Both the position numbers and the translations under genes were made by a program. The notes beneath the pieces were generated by a model. The model saw nothing but the letters and a program-made list of their open reading frames with translations. It had not been told where the DNA came from and did no database searches. DNA of 64,000 nt from Methanomassiliicoccus sp. (GTDB lineage Archaea > Thermoplasmatota > Thermoplasmata > Methanomassiliicoccales > Methanomassiliicoccaceae): assembly GCA_012719175.1 (NCBI GenBank), contig JAAYAX010000004.1, positions 248,001-312,000 of the forward strand, in the 5' to 3' direction. Below are positions 30,797 through 43,989 of the stretch, piece by piece. Position 1 is the stretch's first letter. Each line of letters starts with the position of its first letter.

Positions 30797-31438
30797 CTAC
30801 AGCGCATCGTTGAATGTGACCTTTACCTCCTTGACGTCCCATAGGCTGCCGATCTTCTCCTTGATCTCGTCGCTGATGTTGGTGGCGAACAGGTTGTTCG
30901 ACGGCAGATCGATCGCCACCGCCACGGTCCCCTCCTCCACCTTGATCTCCTTGACCAGGTCGGTCCTCACGATGTCCAGCCCCGCCAGGGGGTTCATGAC
31001 CGTCTTCAGACGCCTCCGCACGACCTCCTCGGTCGTGGGGACCTTGTCCTTGATGAGTCCATGCCTCTCCTCGTAGTTGAGTATGGCCTCCCTCAGTCCC
31101 TCGACCGCCAGGACCGAGCAGTGTGCTTTGACCTTGGGGAGCCCACCCAGCGCCTCCGCCGCCTCTTTCCAGGTTATGGCCTTCGCCTCCTCGATGGTCT
31201 TCCCCTTGGCCAGCTCGGTGATGATCGACGCGGTAGCGATGTTCGAGGCGCAGCCGTAGGACTCGAACTTGATGTCCGTTATCACCTTCGTGGCGTCGTC
31301 CACCTTGATGTATACGGCCACCATGTCCCCGCAGGCCGGGCTGCCGACCATCGCCTTCCCGTCATCATCCTCGATCTTCCCCACGTTCCGGGGGTTCTTA
31401 AAGTGCTCAAGCACCGTCTCGTTGTATGGAAACTTCAT
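30797..31438 (-). CDS. iscU: IscU-type Fe-S scaffold fused to a DUF59/MIP18-like domain (pair A)
   Basis: Residues 1-130 are an IscU scaffold with all three ligand Cys: Cys36 in GSPACGD, Cys63 in SYGCASNIA, Cys107 in KAHCSVL. Residues from about 136 to 213 look like a DUF59/MIP18 (SufT/PaaD-like) domain (LKTVMNPLAGLDIVRTDLV, then VKEIKVEEG). They do not look like the C-x2-C NifU domain. The total of 213 aa compares with about 125 for plain IscU. DUF59 proteins act in Fe-S maturation, so the fusion would join scaffold and delivery functions (inference). It is last in the operon tusA-dsrE-iscS-iscU, 14 bp after iscS. Confidence 0.88.
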   Translation of the reverse strand: MKFPYNETVLEHFKNPRNVGKIEDDDGKAMVGSPACGDMVAVYIKVDDATKVITDIKFESYGCASNIATASIITELAKGKTIEEAKAITWKEAAEALGGLPKVKAHCSVLAVEGLREAILNYEERHGLIKDKVPTTEEVVRRRLKTVMNPLAGLDIVRTDLVKEIKVEEGTVAVAIDLPSNNLFATNISDEIKEKIGSLWDVKEVKVTFNDAL

Positions 31439-31452
31439 GTGTGGTCACCCTT

Positions 31453-32613
31453 CTACTTCTTCAACGGACTTATCCTCCTAAGATTAGCTACGATCGCTGA
31501 TATGGACTCCACCACCGCATCCACGTCCTCCGTTGTATTGAAGCGGCTGAAGCTGAAGCGTATGGACCCATGAGCGCGTTCATGGTTGCCGCCGATGCCC
31601 ATGATCACGTGGCTCGCCTCCAGCGTCCGGCTGAAGCACGCCGAGCCGGTGCTGACCTCGAACCCGCTCATGTCCAGGTGCAGCGTCATTGATTCTCCTT
31701 CCACGTAGTGGAAGGTGATGTTGGCGTTCTGCGGTGTCCTGCTCGTGGCGGATCCATTGATCATCGTATCAGGTATGGTGTCAAGGACCTTGCGGATGAG
31801 GCGGTCCCTCATCCCCCGGATGTAAATGTTCTCCTCCTCGGTCACCAATGACGCGGCTTTGGCGAAGCCGATGGCCCCGGGGATGTTTTCCAATCCCGCC
31901 CTACGGTTCGACTCCTGGAAGCCACCGTCCATCCACTTGGAGATGGGCGTCTTGCCGCGTATGTACAGTCCGCCCACGCCCCTCGGCCCGTGTATAGTGT
32001 GCGCCGAGATCGTGAGCAGGTCCACCGGCACCCTGGACACGTCCAGGGGCAGCCGCCGGAAGGTGTGGGTGGCGTCGGCGTGGTAGAGCACCTTCTTGTC
32101 GTGGCAGATGTCAGCGATGGCCTTGATATCCTGGACCGTGCCGATCTCCTGGTTAGCGTGCTGGACGGACACCAGCACGGTATCGGCGGCGATGCTCGAC
32201 TGCAATTTGTCCAGGTCCAGCAGGCCTTCCCCGTCCACGTCCAGGTAGGTTACGCGGAGACCGTCCTGCTCCAGGGTCCGGGCGCTGTTGAGGACAGGAA
32301 AGTCCTCGATCTTGGATATTATCACGTGGCTCCCCTTCTTCCTCAGGGCCTTGGTCACCCCTTTCAGCGCCATGTTGCTGGACTCCGTGTCCCCGGAAGT
32401 GAACGCCATGTCCTCCGCCGGCGCCTCCAGGCACTTGGCTAGTGACTCCCTGGCGTTGTCCAGGGCCTCCCTCGCATCCAGCCCCATGGAGTAGCCGAAC
32501 TCCGATGTGGCCACCGCATAATGCTCCAGGAAGTAGGGCTTCATCTCCTCCAGGACCCTTTCGTCAAGCTTGGTCGTCGCTGAGTTATCCAGGTAGTGGA
32601 TCTTATTGGTCAT
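31453..32613 (-). CDS. IscS/NifS-like protein lacking the PLP-lysine (pair A)
   Basis: This has the overall cysteine desulfurase fold (386 aa) starting IHYLDNSATTKLDERV, and keeps the sulfur-accepting Cys326 in STGSACFSRTLEASHV. Key PLP residues are changed. The Schiff-base Lys is Thr206 (SAHTIHGPRG, usually SAHK), the stacking His is Asp104 (IEDFPVL, usually EHHAVL), and the Gln after D-A is His183 (DATHTF). It should therefore not work as a normal PLP desulfurase. I recall an Archaeoglobus IscS reported to lack this Lys. It may serve as a structural partner or sulfur acceptor for IscU. The upstream tusA and dsrE genes support a sulfur relay. Confidence 0.88.
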   Translation of the reverse strand: MTNKIHYLDNSATTKLDERVLEEMKPYFLEHYAVATSEFGYSMGLDAREALDNARESLAKCLEAPAEDMAFTSGDTESSNMALKGVTKALRKKGSHVIISKIEDFPVLNSARTLEQDGLRVTYLDVDGEGLLDLDKLQSSIAADTVLVSVQHANQEIGTVQDIKAIADICHDKKVLYHADATHTFRRLPLDVSRVPVDLLTISAHTIHGPRGVGGLYIRGKTPISKWMDGGFQESNRRAGLENIPGAIGFAKAASLVTEEENIYIRGMRDRLIRKVLDTIPDTMINGSATSRTPQNANITFHYVEGESMTLHLDMSGFEVSTGSACFSRTLEASHVIMGIGGNHERAHGSIRFSFSRFNTTEDVDAVVESISAIVANLRRISPLKK

Positions 32614-32622
32614 GATATCTCC

Positions 32623-33042
32623 TCATATGAATAGCGTGATCTTGGATTGTTTCGCATCGTTCACGTACGTTCCCACCGCCCCGAACTCATCGATCAGCTC
32701 GGTCCGCAGGTCCTCCCTCTTGATTCCCATGACCTCCATGGTCATCTCGCAGGCGATCACCTTCCCACCCAATTCCCGGTAATCGCTCATCAGCTTGTCG
32801 AGGCTGGCCACGCCTGCCTTCTCCATCCTCCCCTTGACCATGGACCGGCCCAGGCCGAGCATGTTCATCCTCGACAGCTTGCCCTTGTCCAGTCCTCCCT
32901 TCCTGAGCCTCTGCAGGCCCCAGAAGGTGAAGTAGATGGTCGCCTCCATGCCCATGGATAGTGCGCCGTTCCCGACGATGAGGGCGCTATAGACCTTGTC
33001 CATCTCGCCGCTGTGAAGAATTATCGTCGCCCGGTCGGCCAC
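32623..33042 (-). CDS. DsrE/DsrF/DrsH-like sulfur-relay protein
   Basis: This is a 139-aa DsrE-fold protein. The strand-helix ATIILHSGEMDKVYSALIVG is followed by a long middle segment with GLQRLRKGGLDKGKLSRMN, then IACEMTMEVMGI carrying the conserved Cys near residue 98 that can hold persulfide. The GTG at 33042 is taken as start because tusA ends at 33045 and AAGGAGGG sits just upstream. It is translationally linked to tusA. It probably passes sulfur between TusA and the IscS-like/IscU pair. Confidence 0.83.
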   Translation of the reverse strand: MADRATIILHSGEMDKVYSALIVGNGALSMGMEATIYFTFWGLQRLRKGGLDKGKLSRMNMLGLGRSMVKGRMEKAGVASLDKLMSDYRELGGKVIACEMTMEVMGIKREDLRTELIDEFGAVGTYVNDAKQSKITLFI

Positions 33043-33638: not shown

Positions 33639-34013
33639 TCAGCCGGACCTATGCCGATAATCATCTATCGCCTTCCTGAGGGCCTCGGGCGCCAGGATGG
33701 AGCAGCTCACCTTACTCTCCGGCATACCCTTCTCGAAAGCGTCGGCGACCGCAGCCTTGTCGATCTTGACAGCCTCGTCGATCCGCTTGCCTTTGACCAT
33801 CTCCGTGAACATGCTGCTAGAGGCGATGGCTGCCACGCACCCGAAGGTCTGAAAGCTCACATCCTCGATGACGTCGTCCTTCACCTTGAGGTATATGACC
33901 ACTACATCCCCATCGACATCGTTGGCGGCCTTGCCCACGCCGCTGGCGTCCTTCATCTCGCCAACGTTCCGGGGGTTCATGAAGTGCTCAATGACCTTGA
34001 CACCGTACGCCAT
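33639..34013 (-). CDS. IscU-type scaffold lacking the first ligand Cys (pair B)
   Basis: A plain 124-aa IscU begins VIEHFMNPRNVGEM. Where IscU has N-P-x-C-G-D, this reads N-D-V-D-G-D, so the first cluster Cys is Asp34. Cys59 (TFGCVAAIASSS) and Cys104 (SKVSCSIL) remain; the His normally before the third Cys is Ser. Assembly of a standard cluster would need another ligand or a partner residue. It follows nifS-B by 5 bp and is clearly co-transcribed with it. Confidence 0.88.
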   Translation of the reverse strand: MAYGVKVIEHFMNPRNVGEMKDASGVGKAANDVDGDVVVIYLKVKDDVIEDVSFQTFGCVAAIASSSMFTEMVKGKRIDEAVKIDKAAVADAFEKGMPESKVSCSILAPEALRKAIDDYRHRSG

Positions 34014-34018
34014 TATAT

Positions 34019-35200
34019 TTACCTCCCTTTGGAACCCTGGTGGAGAAGCGCTATCGGCGATATGTTCCGGAGCTTCGCGGTGACCTCCTCGATCGTGGTC
34101 AGGTACATCTCCGCTTCAGCTAGGGTGCTCATCTTAGATAGGGTTATGCGCAGGGAGCCCCGAGCATCCTCCTTCCTCACGCCGATAGCCTGGAGCACGT
34201 GAGACGTCTCTGTCTCCCTGGAAGAGCAAGCAGAACCGGTGGAGGCGGCGATGCCCCTCATGTCCAGGCTCATGATCAGAGCCTCTCCCTCGATGTAGTC
34301 GAACCTGAAGTGGGCGTTGTTGCACAACCGGCCCTCCCGGGGTCCGTTGAGATAGCAGCCGTCGATGTTCGCTAGCGTGCCCTCGATCATGCGGTCCCGT
34401 ATGGAGGTCATGCGCGCGACGCTCTCGTCCATCTCCGACATCCCCAGCTCGATGGCCTCCCCCATCCCTACAATACCCGGGACGTTCTCGGTCGATGAGC
34501 GCAGGCCCCTTTCCTGGCCCCCGCCATAGACTAGCGGCTGCACCTCGGTGCCATCCCGCATGTACAGGGCACCGATGCCCTTGGGGCCGTGGAACTTGTG
34601 CGCCGAGATGGCCATGAGGTCGATGTTGTCACGATCCACATCGATCGGTACCTTGGTCATCGCCTGCACCGCATCGGTATGAAAGAGGGCGCCCCCCTCT
34701 CTCGCGATATCACCTATCTCGCGGATGTTCTCGATGGTACCGATCTCGTTGTTGGCAGCCATGATGGACACCAGCACCGTGTCCTTGGTGATCGCCGCCT
34801 TCACCGTCTCGGGGTCCGCCCGCCCGTACTGGTCGACGGGCAGATAGGTAACGCGGAACCCCTGGCTCTCGAGGAAACGGCAGGTCCTCAGGACCGCGTG
34901 GTGCTCGATCGTGCATGTGATGATATTATCTCCCCGGTCGCGGCTCGCGTACGCCGCCCCCTGCAAGGCCAGGTTGTCCGACTCCGTCCCCCCAGAGGTG
35001 AAGACGATCTCTCGTGGCGCTGCTCCCATAGCCTTGGCCACCTGCTCCCTCGCCCTCTCCATGGCGGCAGCGGCCTCCCTCCCGAACGAATGGAGGCTGG
35101 AAGGGTTCCCGTACCAATTGTTGAAGTAGGGGTGCATGGCCTTCAGCACCCTGGGGTCGGGACGGGTGGTCGCGCTATTATCGAAGTAAACGCTATCCAT
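34019..35200 (-). CDS. iscS: Cysteine desulfurase NifS/IscS (pair B)
   Basis: This intact 393-aa PLP enzyme releases sulfur from cysteine. It has VYFDNSATTRPDPRV, the PLP-stacking His100 in CTIEHHAVLRTC, Asp176/Gln179 in HTDAVQAMTKV, the Schiff-base Lys202 in ISAHKFHGPKG, and the catalytic Cys325 in STGSACSSRETETSHVL. Of the two unbroken IscS-type genes it is the only one with a full active site. It heads a two-gene unit with iscU-B. An operator-like palindrome lies 13 bp before the ATG. Confidence 0.95.
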   Translation of the reverse strand: MDSVYFDNSATTRPDPRVLKAMHPYFNNWYGNPSSLHSFGREAAAAMERAREQVAKAMGAAPREIVFTSGGTESDNLALQGAAYASRDRGDNIITCTIEHHAVLRTCRFLESQGFRVTYLPVDQYGRADPETVKAAITKDTVLVSIMAANNEIGTIENIREIGDIAREGGALFHTDAVQAMTKVPIDVDRDNIDLMAISAHKFHGPKGIGALYMRDGTEVQPLVYGGGQERGLRSSTENVPGIVGMGEAIELGMSEMDESVARMTSIRDRMIEGTLANIDGCYLNGPREGRLCNNAHFRFDYIEGEALIMSLDMRGIAASTGSACSSRETETSHVLQAIGVRKEDARGSLRITLSKMSTLAEAEMYLTTIEEVTAKLRNISPIALLHQGSKGR

Positions 35201-41152: not shown

Positions 41153-42776
41153 CTATGGCCTCTTGGGTACATTGGTCTCGATGTGTATCAGGGAGTCCTC
41201 ATCGGCCTCGCACGAGTGGTCGTGCTCCTCCTTTTTGGCGTCAGGGGGCAGAGGCGGCTCCCTACCCTGCTTCCTAAGATAATCGTGGATGGCGTCATGA
41301 AGGGCGTCAGCGGCAAGGTTGGAGCAGTGCATCTTTTGTGGAGGCAATCCTCCCAGGTTCTCGGCGACGTCGTTCCGTGTGATCTTTAGGCCTTCCTGAA
41401 TGGTCTTGCCCTTTGCCAGGTCCGTCACCATGCTGCTGGTGGCGATGGCCGCTCCGCATCCGAAGGTCTTGAACTTCACGTCGGTGAGGACATCGTCCTT
41501 GACCTTGATGTAGATGTACATCACATCACCGCAGTTATGAACGGTGAACGCATCGGTGGCATAGGAGTGCTGGTCGGCGATTTCGAGGTTGTGGACCTTC
41601 CCAGTATACTGCATGGTATCTGTCGAGGTAATCGGCGTAAATAGGAAGCCATCTTTTATCCAGGAGTGCTCCTTTACTGTGCCAGTCAGAGCACATTCTA
41701 TGCCCAGTATTCCGCAGAGCTTCTTTAAAGAATTTACATCGCCGACATGGATGCGGTACAACTCCCTGTGGGTGATATCCTCTATGATGGAGCCCTTCTC
41801 CTTATAGATGGAGGGGATGAACCCTTTTCTAAGCGGCAGCGTCTTTATCTGTCCAGCCAGCTGGCCGGATATCGTGGAGTATCCTGCCCTTGGTACCTCC
41901 CTTACGATGTTGACATAACCGTCCCCTCTCCATAGCCCCTGAAGGAGATGGTGCTGCTTTTCGGATGGTAAGAAAAGCATGAAATCCGGGATCTGCTTGT
42001 TCTCCGCACCCTTGCCAAAAGTTTTCTCAAAACCCTGGCCAGGTTCGCGCTGTTTACTATGACTTATGTTGCATTGGTCTCTTCACGCGGAATAATCGAG
42101 GCATCTAGACCAAACTTGTCTTTGATGATCTTGACGACGTCTCTTTGATACTCCACCTCCTTGATGTGGAAGGTGAAGCATATATGCGCCTTGGTCACCT
42201 TGGTGACGGCATTGCCCTCCGCAAGATAATAACCAGCGAGGCGGAGAAAATCTGCATCCGCGGGCACTCTCATAGGAATGTCGGTGCTCCGATGGTCCAA
42301 CATTTTCTTTTGGAAATCAAGGTCGAACAACTCCTGGTCCTTAATCACCTTTAGAATCGGATAGACGGCAATATCTCGAGGCTGGTGGTCGCTGACATTG
42401 TACCATTCGGCATTCAGCTCTTTCTTATTGCGTGTATAGTTGAACTTGTGCTGGTCAGGCCTCTTCACCGCCAGTACGAGATGCTCCGGGGTCATCTCAA
42501 CTAATCCCAGCTTGTTCTTCAGACGGATTATCGGTCCATCATAGTCTCTCACATACCTCCGTTCGACCGTTGAGTATACCCCTTCATGAGTAAGGACCCT
42601 CCTTTTTCCTGCACGTTCTCGATCTCTTTGAAATGGTTGTTGAGATGGATCATGGTCCCACTGACCAGGCAGACGGGATTCCCGTCCTGGCCGATGCCAT
42701 CGGCGTCGGGGATGTCCCCCATGTTATGAGGGCTCGTGAAATGCTCCATTACCTTCTCAGTGTAAAGTTGTGACAT
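41153..42776 (-). pseudogene. Intein-containing IscU scaffold gene with two frameshifts (pair C)
   Basis: N-extein: MSQLYTEKVMEHFTSPHNMG to residue 35 (GNPV). C-extein: 41533-41153, starting CGDVMYIYIKVKDD and keeping the other two ligand Cys (TFGCGAAI, KMHCSNL), with a Cys/His-containing tail. An intein separates them. Two one-base losses break the frame. One is at the C4 run 42579-42582; one more base gives KGVYSTVERRY. The other is near 42066-42072; one more base gives ETNANISHSKQ. Without frame correction only an 80-aa fragment is made. The start ATG 42776 overlaps the end of nifS-C by 20 bp. Confidence 0.9.
41534..42671 (-). mobile_element. LAGLIDADG homing intein inserted before the first ligand Cys of IscU-C
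   Basis: All splicing blocks can be read. Block A is CLVSGTMIHL with Cys1. Block B is EMTPEHLVLAVK (T-x2-H). The DOD motifs are LRLAGYYLAEGN and LLQGLWRGDGYVN. Block F is VHNLEIADQHSYATDAF. Block G is TVHN, followed by Cys+1. The frame-corrected length is 380 aa. The insertion is between V35 and the invariant Cys of NPVCGD, an active-site position typical of inteins. Two one-base deletions (see iscU-C) disable it as read. Inteins in SufB are well known; I know of none in IscU. Confidence 0.92.
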
Positions 42777-43945
42777 CGTATGCAACTCCTTCGCTCAGTG
42801 GTGACATCTTTCTAAGTAGTTCGACGACAGGCCCGATGGTGGCATTGAAACTGTCCGCCTCCTCCATGGTGTTGTACTTTCACAGGGATAGACGCAGGGA
42901 ACCGTGGCACTGCTCGTGCCTTAGGCCCAGACCCCTAAGGACATGGGACGGCTCCAGGCTCTTGGTCGAGCACGCGGAGCCCGTGGAGGCAGCGATGCCC
43001 CTCATATCCAGGTGTAGTATCATGCCCTCCCCTTCGATGTAATCGAAGCGGAAATGGGCGTTATTGCACAACCTCTTCTCACCCCGTGGCCCGTTAAGGT
43101 ATGATCGGGGTATCGTGTCCAAGGTCGATCCGATCAGGCGATTACGGATGGCACTCATCCTGGCGACGTTCTCCTCCATCTCCGCCATCCCTATCTCCAG
43201 TGCCTTTCCCAATCCTACGATCCCCGGGATGTTCTCAGTGGAGGATCGCAGCCCTATCTCATTCCCTCCACCTTAGATAAGGGGGCGGAGCCTGATACCT
43301 TTACGGACAAAGAGGGCGCCGATACCTTTGGGACCATGGACCTTATGCCCTGATAGCGAGAGCATATCTATCTTCATCTTTCCGACATCCAGTGGCATCT
43401 TGGTCACGGCCTGGACAGCATCGGTATGGAACAGAGCACCCGCCTCCTTGGCGACCTCGGCGAGCTCCTTGATAGGCTGAATGGTACCGATCTCGTTGTT
43501 GGCGGCCATAATGGACACGAGGGTCGTATCCTTAGTGATGGCGTTCTTGAGATCTTCCACGGAGACCGACCCTCCTCGTCCACCGGAAGATAGGTCACCT
43601 TGAAACCCTGGGTCTCCAGGAACTGGCAAGTGTGTAGGACCGCATGGTGCTCCACGGCCGAGGTGATGATGTGCTTGCCCTTGCTCATGGAGGCGTAGGC
43701 GGCCCCTTGAGTGGCCAGATTATCGGACTCTGTCCCGCCTGATGTGAATATGACCTCCTTGACCTCTACGCTTAAGGCCCGCGCGGTGCGCTCCCTGCCG
43801 ATCTCCATGGCCTCATAGGCATCTCGGCCGAACGAGTGCAGGGAGGATGCGTTGCCATAGCTTCGGTGAAATATGGCATCATCTCCTGCATCACCCGGGG
43901 TTCCACCTGAGTGGTGGCACTGTTGTCAAAATATATCCTCTCCAT
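42757..43945 (-). pseudogene. Broken nifS/iscS cysteine desulfurase (pair C)
   Basis: The remains of a 396-aa enzyme close to nifS-B begin MERIYFDNSATTQVEPRV. There are four lesions: a one-base loss near 43861 (GC-TAT, where YGNAS should follow); a one-base loss near 43572 (CG-GTC, where VSVEDLKN should follow); an in-frame TAA at 43273-43275 (PLI-stop-GGGNE, usually Tyr); and an in-frame TGA at 42880-42882 (SLRLSL-stop-KYNT). Catalytic residues are still legible: Lys in [11 protein letters not shown] and Cys in STGSACSTKSLEPSHV. Two stops of different kinds plus two frameshifts argue for real decay. Confidence 0.92.
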
Positions 43946-43989
43946 AGATTCACCTCGCAGGTACAAGATGGGTAAGCTGGTAGGATATA

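Follow-up and report, generated by a model that had tools for sequence, protein, structure and literature searches.

The gene of an IscU-type Fe-S cluster scaffold in Methanomassiliicoccus sp. is interrupted by an intein-coding insert, IscU-a, placed directly before the codon for the first cluster-ligand cysteine. The explanation that best covers all of the data, and one that we regard as highly probable, is that of a class 1 intein with a LAGLIDADG endonuclease domain in iscU, whose intact alleles in related organisms would splice and home, and whose copy in the window (the whole stretch of 64,000 nucleotides analysed here, from contig JAAYAX010000004.1) has decayed together with the adjacent iscS gene. 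IscU is apparently an unreported intein host protein, and is so at two sites. The features of the interrupted gene pair, given from its 5' end, are the following.

42772..43966, minus strand: pseudogene of iscS (cysteine desulfurase), upstream of iscU, spread over three frames with two in-frame stops
42672..42776, minus strand: iscU/nifU N-extein (MSQLYTEK...DGNPV), NifU_N match with E 4.1e-6
41534..42671, minus strand: IscU-a intein, disrupted, from C1 through HN, 1,138 nt, recognised by its motifs, a profile match and the alleles of relatives
42603..42671, minus strand: block A region CLVSGTMIHLNNHFKEIENVQEK, from motif reading
42601..42602, minus strand: frameshift 1, with one base fewer at intein codon 24
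42481..42492, minus strand: block B motif TPEH, with T61 and H64 invariant across 22 related inteins
42211..42246, minus strand: first LAGLIDADG motif LRLAGYYLAEGN, with E152 conserved in at least 90% of 22 related inteins
42064..42066, minus strand: in-frame TAA within the endonuclease domain, from translation
42023..42027 (around 42024), minus strand: frameshift 2, again with one base fewer
41909..41947, minus strand: second LAGLIDADG motif LLQGLWRGDGYVN, with D251 invariant across 22 related inteins
41534..41599, minus strand: block F/G KVHNLEIADQHSYATDAFTVHN, with H379 and N380 invariant
41153..41533, minus strand: iscU/nifU C-extein, from Cys+1, which is the first Fe-S ligand Cys (CGDVMYIYIKV...), NifU_N match with E 2.4e-34

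The interrupted iscU/nifU gene starts at position 42776 of the minus strand with the N-terminus MSQLYTEKVMEHF, which runs to DGNPV, and the length of its insert equals 380 codons minus two nucleotides. The junctions read GNPV, C1 ... HN380, CGD, so that the insert immediately precedes the first ligand cysteine. A preliminary description of this DNA had placed the intein at 42671..41534, and these coordinates are exact, with the N-extein at 42776..42672 and the C-extein from 41533 onwards; the splicing motifs that it listed are all present in the window (Cys1, TPEH, LAGYYLAEG as the first and LLQGLWRGDG as the second LAGLIDADG motif, VHNLEIADQHSY, VHN and Cys+1). Both exteins are readable, as had been claimed, with each half matching Pfam NifU_N and the joined extein passing NCBIfam TIGR03419 (NifU_clost) with 199.6 bits against a cut-off of 187.9. 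The three ligand-cysteine motifs of IscU are found in the joined extein as NPVCGD, TFGCGAA and MHCSNL, and the intein segment itself matches Pfam LAGLIDADG_3 (E 5e-12).

A search of 61 related genomes revealed both intact alleles and empty sites, the two states that the preliminary description had proposed to look for. In five genomes of Methanomassiliicoccaceae the exteins and the insert form one open frame (L001-L005); the carriers are G006, G005 and G002, which belong to the same genus as the window genome, and G012 and G008 from another genus of the family. These inserts of 378-380 residues share 56-70% identity with the window copy and occupy the identical position, just before the first ligand cysteine of NPVCGD, where the insert had originally been placed; chance is therefore excluded as the source of the window intein. 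A sixth IscU-a copy, in G013 (L006), has a frame break near its C-terminus, at about residue 351, and is either another damaged allele or an error in the sequence. The uninterrupted site, NP[VTI]CGD, is present in G001, G009, G011, G014 and G010, in ORFs of ordinary size unless a contig end cuts them. The presence and absence of the intein is patchy on the tree of IscU exteins, a distribution expected of an element gained by homing and then lost. In G005, G006, G008 and G012 no second IscU was found at E<=1e-10 besides the interrupted gene, so a working IscU in these organisms would need splicing. Additionally, a separate scan of genome contigs located the intein in two Methanomassiliicoccus records and gave one weak bacterial match.

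The continuity of the relatives' ORF through exteins and insert would also be seen if the 380 residues were an ordinary in-frame domain insertion kept in the mature IscU. This is very improbable, since such an insert would split the cluster-binding site, close relatives have an uninterrupted NPVCGD, and homologous inserts are located at unrelated cysteine sites in SufB, ABCE1, thioredoxin reductase and 2-oxoacid:ferredoxin oxidoreductase; moreover, C1, TPxH, HN and Cys+1 are invariant and are accompanied by LAGLIDADG motifs and an intein fold. The insert belongs to the ordinary class 1 (Cys1) inteins and is bifunctional, with a predicted LAGLIDADG homing endonuclease. In the seven intact IscU-a alleles C1, TPxH, E152, D251, K226, H379 and N380 are invariant, and so are C1, T61, H64, K226, D251, H379 and N380 across 22 related inteins. 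The comparison with intein profiles, which had been suggested as a check, gave matches to PF14890 (Intein_splicing) for six of the seven intact alleles (best E 1.3e-7) and to TIGR01443 for five, while Pfam PF14528 (LAGLIDADG_3) matched all seven. The PF14890 score of L001, 21.7 bits, lies under the curated cut-off of 35.8, which is passed by a related intein, L069 (40.7 bits); a TIGR01445 match of 16.8 bits is likewise below its curated cut-off. Uncorrected pN/pS values between alleles range from 0.19 to 0.47, alike in the splicing and endonuclease parts, and are rough, with synonymous sites near saturation.

The Hint (horseshoe beta) fold is present in the predicted structure. The AlphaFold2 (AF2) model of the G006 allele, based on a 22-sequence alignment, has a pLDDT of 90.9 and a pTM of 0.91; this alignment was used in place of one with the five close alleles only, for which the pLDDT was 56.5. 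In Foldseek comparisons the model matches the TliVMA intein (7qsu) with TM scores of 0.72/0.75 and E 5e-22, and the top solved matches are whole inteins: TliVMA, PI-SceI, PI-PkoII and PI-PfuI. A free-standing homing endonuclease or a self-splicing intron could also account for LAGLIDADG motifs, as archaeal and group I introns have such domains and I-DmoI is among the Foldseek matches. Here, however, the insert is in frame with both exteins, carries a full splicing domain with a C-terminal HN followed by C, and its model superposes on entire inteins, beyond the endonuclease alone, which makes the intron or endonuclease explanation extremely unlikely. The original proposal of an intein in an IscU-type scaffold is thus supported by the motifs, the intact alleles, the empty sites and the predicted fold.

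The window copy is no longer intact. Its iscU extein and intein have no continuous ORF (two frameshifts and one stop); the two one-base losses recognised initially are both there, and with the TAA at 42066..42064, which had been missed, the lesions number three. The adjoining iscS contains two frameshifts and two stops, so that the pair carries at least four frameshifts and three in-frame stops. The breaks are limited to these two genes, as every other conserved gene at 26-58 kb of the window keeps a single frame, a sign of good general sequence quality. In the sister genome G003 the start of iscS is fused to iscU from about residue 56, the rest of the pair being deleted, and a search of that genome detected no further IscS or IscU; SufB is retained both there and in the window genome (G000). 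Taken together, the lesions in iscU and iscS, the intact conserved neighbours and the deletion of the same pair in the sister genome indicate that the iscS-iscU operon of the window is very probably a real pseudogene and not a product of read errors. The view of the intein as a dying or recently dead allele was right about the dead state, but the loss covers the whole iscS-iscU pair and extends beyond the intein. Given the loss of the pair in G003 as well, the decay is probably not specific to the intein and probably concerns the common lineage of the two genomes. The low uncorrected pN/pS of 0.23 between the window intein and the G006 allele suggests that this loss is recent.

The same value, which speaks of a divergence that still appears constrained, could be expected if the intein were functional in the window organism and the frame breaks were sequencing or assembly errors; both intein frameshifts adjoin A/G- or T-rich homopolymer runs, where read errors are common. 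Such errors would nevertheless have had to strike iscS and iscU alone, with at least four frameshifts and three in-frame stops, next to neighbours in one frame, and would leave unexplained the deletion of most of the same two genes in G003. Sequencing error is accordingly not favoured and is judged unlikely. With iscS-iscU very probably decayed, splicing and homing are not expected from the window copy.

Two other genes of IscU-like or NifU-like type are located in the window, both on the minus strand. The gene at 33642-34013 has ANDVDGD where the interrupted copy has GNPVCGD, with Asp substituting for the first ligand Cys, that is, at the position of the intein in the copy at 41153..42776. 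It adjoins a second, intact iscS (34052-35200), and among the 15 nearest relatives it has no match above 56% identity. A third, NifU-like gene at 31055-31435, in an open frame of 215 aa, is accompanied by a cysteine desulfurase-like gene of its own at about 31456-32643.

The intact alleles most likely follow the standard class 1 splicing pathway, judging from the conserved residues and the predicted fold. In the intact precursor Cys1 would form a thioester with the preceding Val or Thr, and the N-extein would then be received by Cys+1, which is the ligand cysteine of IscU itself. Asn380, aided by His379, would cyclise, and an S-N shift would leave a scarless GNPVCGD scaffold. The predicted endonuclease domain would cut intein-free iscU genes at the same site, allowing the element to spread. 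Splicing responsive to the redox state has been reported for some other inteins.

A phylum-wide NifU_N search with follow-up searches extended the range of IscU inteins. In another class of the phylum the IscU-a site is occupied in G423, G421 and G451, by two intact alleles and one partial one; the inteins of G423 and G421 are 42% identical to that of G006. A second site, IscU-b, precedes the second ligand cysteine (FKTFG, C...HN, C[TA]AAI). Its carriers, G461, G453 and G376, have intact IscU genes of 481-485 residues with a 356-residue intein. Two of the three ligand cysteines of IscU thus carry intein sites. A second search of the phylum with the IscU-b inteins yielded no further IscU hosts; the next matches lay in ORFs that, at 820-868 residues, are as long as intein-bearing SufB genes.

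A class-wide search with extraction of the junctions located homologous inteins directly before a cysteine in four other hosts. L069 interrupts the beta subunit of 2-oxoacid:ferredoxin oxidoreductase (junction WCPG, CGD), a host name backed by Pfam. The names of the other three are our own reading of motifs recognised in the translations: L070 and L071 are in ORFs taken to be thioredoxin reductase-like, before the second redox-active Cys (CAT, CDG); L072-L078 and L080, from several Thermoplasmata, are in presumably ABCE1 (RNase L inhibitor)-like ORFs, before an Fe-S ligand Cys (CISCGI, CVKKCPFD); and the presumed SufB inteins of the class have the junction YIEG, CTAPI. Other homologous inteins occur in radical SAM-like and helicase-like ORFs. 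It is also worth mentioning that L084 and L093, radical SAM-like with the motifs CRYCF and CQNADIS, apparently contain more than one intein each.

In a tree of 23 inteins IscU-a groups with the inteins of the oxidoreductase and of thioredoxin reductase (97/95 for this trio, 89/91 for the pair of IscU-a and the oxidoreductase intein), while IscU-b is placed with the SufB inteins (100/100); no grouping of IscU-a with the SufB inteins is seen in this tree. Since IscU-a and IscU-b stand in separate parts of it, IscU, by these sequence data, has been invaded at least twice, by different intein lineages. The target sites bear some likeness along the same lines. Over a 21-nt core the oxidoreductase and IscU-a targets share 12.3 matches against 7.1 by chance, a similarity equalled by 0.3% of 1,827 random sites, and the SufB and IscU-b targets share 10.9 against 7.0, equalled by 2.7% of random cysteine codons; for the other combinations of host pairs the similarity of the 21-nt cores is not significant. 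The pairs were chosen after the tree and the sample is small, which makes this similarity a lead and no proof. In part it reflects shared motifs (CGD; GCTA), possibly the route by which the host is changed.

A broader reading, which we offer tentatively and consider doubtful, is that related archaeal inteins hop among unrelated Fe-S and redox proteins by homing into short coding sequences that surround ligand or redox-active cysteines, that IscU was reached by this route on two occasions, and that assembly of the scaffold depends on thiols. The sequences concerned would be CGD in ferredoxin oxidoreductase and IscU, and GCTA in SufB and IscU; with the ligand cysteine acting as a splicing nucleophile, scaffold assembly would depend on the cellular thiol state. 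A close carrier among viruses or plasmids was not found, the phage, plasmid and viral matches being 23-36% identical. The viral contigs L162-L183 contain inteins or LAGLIDADG proteins with 23-36% identity to the IscU inteins.

After SufB, protein splicing would now extend to a second scaffold of Fe-S assembly, where two intein lineages occupy two of the three ligand cysteines. The natural matched sets of intact, empty and decayed sites make it possible to ask whether splicing plays a regulatory part at a metal-ligand cysteine or is neutral there, and also serve the question of how homing endonucleases switch hosts. The preliminary description was aware of no intein in IscU or NifU, which agrees with the open-access papers searched, where none was found; other papers or database entries may exist.

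SufB inteins are known from Mycobacterium tuberculosis and Ferroplasma (PMC8891592). Like IscU-a, they belong to class 1, with Cys1 and Cys+1, and reside in a host that takes part in Fe-S cluster assembly. The archaeal SufB inteins found here are 28-29% identical to IscU-a, and their insertion site has His-5 and Gly-1, as described in PMC8891592. IscU-a differs from them in host protein and site and lies outside the SufB group, whereas IscU-b falls inside it. The archaeal VMA inteins (TliVMA, PDB 7qss/7qsu) and the yeast PI-SceI have the same architecture of Hint plus LAGLIDADG domains, but with a sequence identity of about 17%, another host gene and another target. The best NCBIfam match is to the inteins of tetraether lipid synthase (NF045703; 79 bits for L001), whose host is a radical SAM Fe-S protein; this match spans only part of the IscU-a intein, and the host gene differs. 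Among the inteins of other proteins, the one nearest to IscU-a is the oxidoreductase intein L069, with a full-length match of 254 bits; it is also inserted before CGD (CPG, CGD as against NP[VT], CGD in IscU-a), but is 38% identical to IscU-a and interrupts a different host protein.
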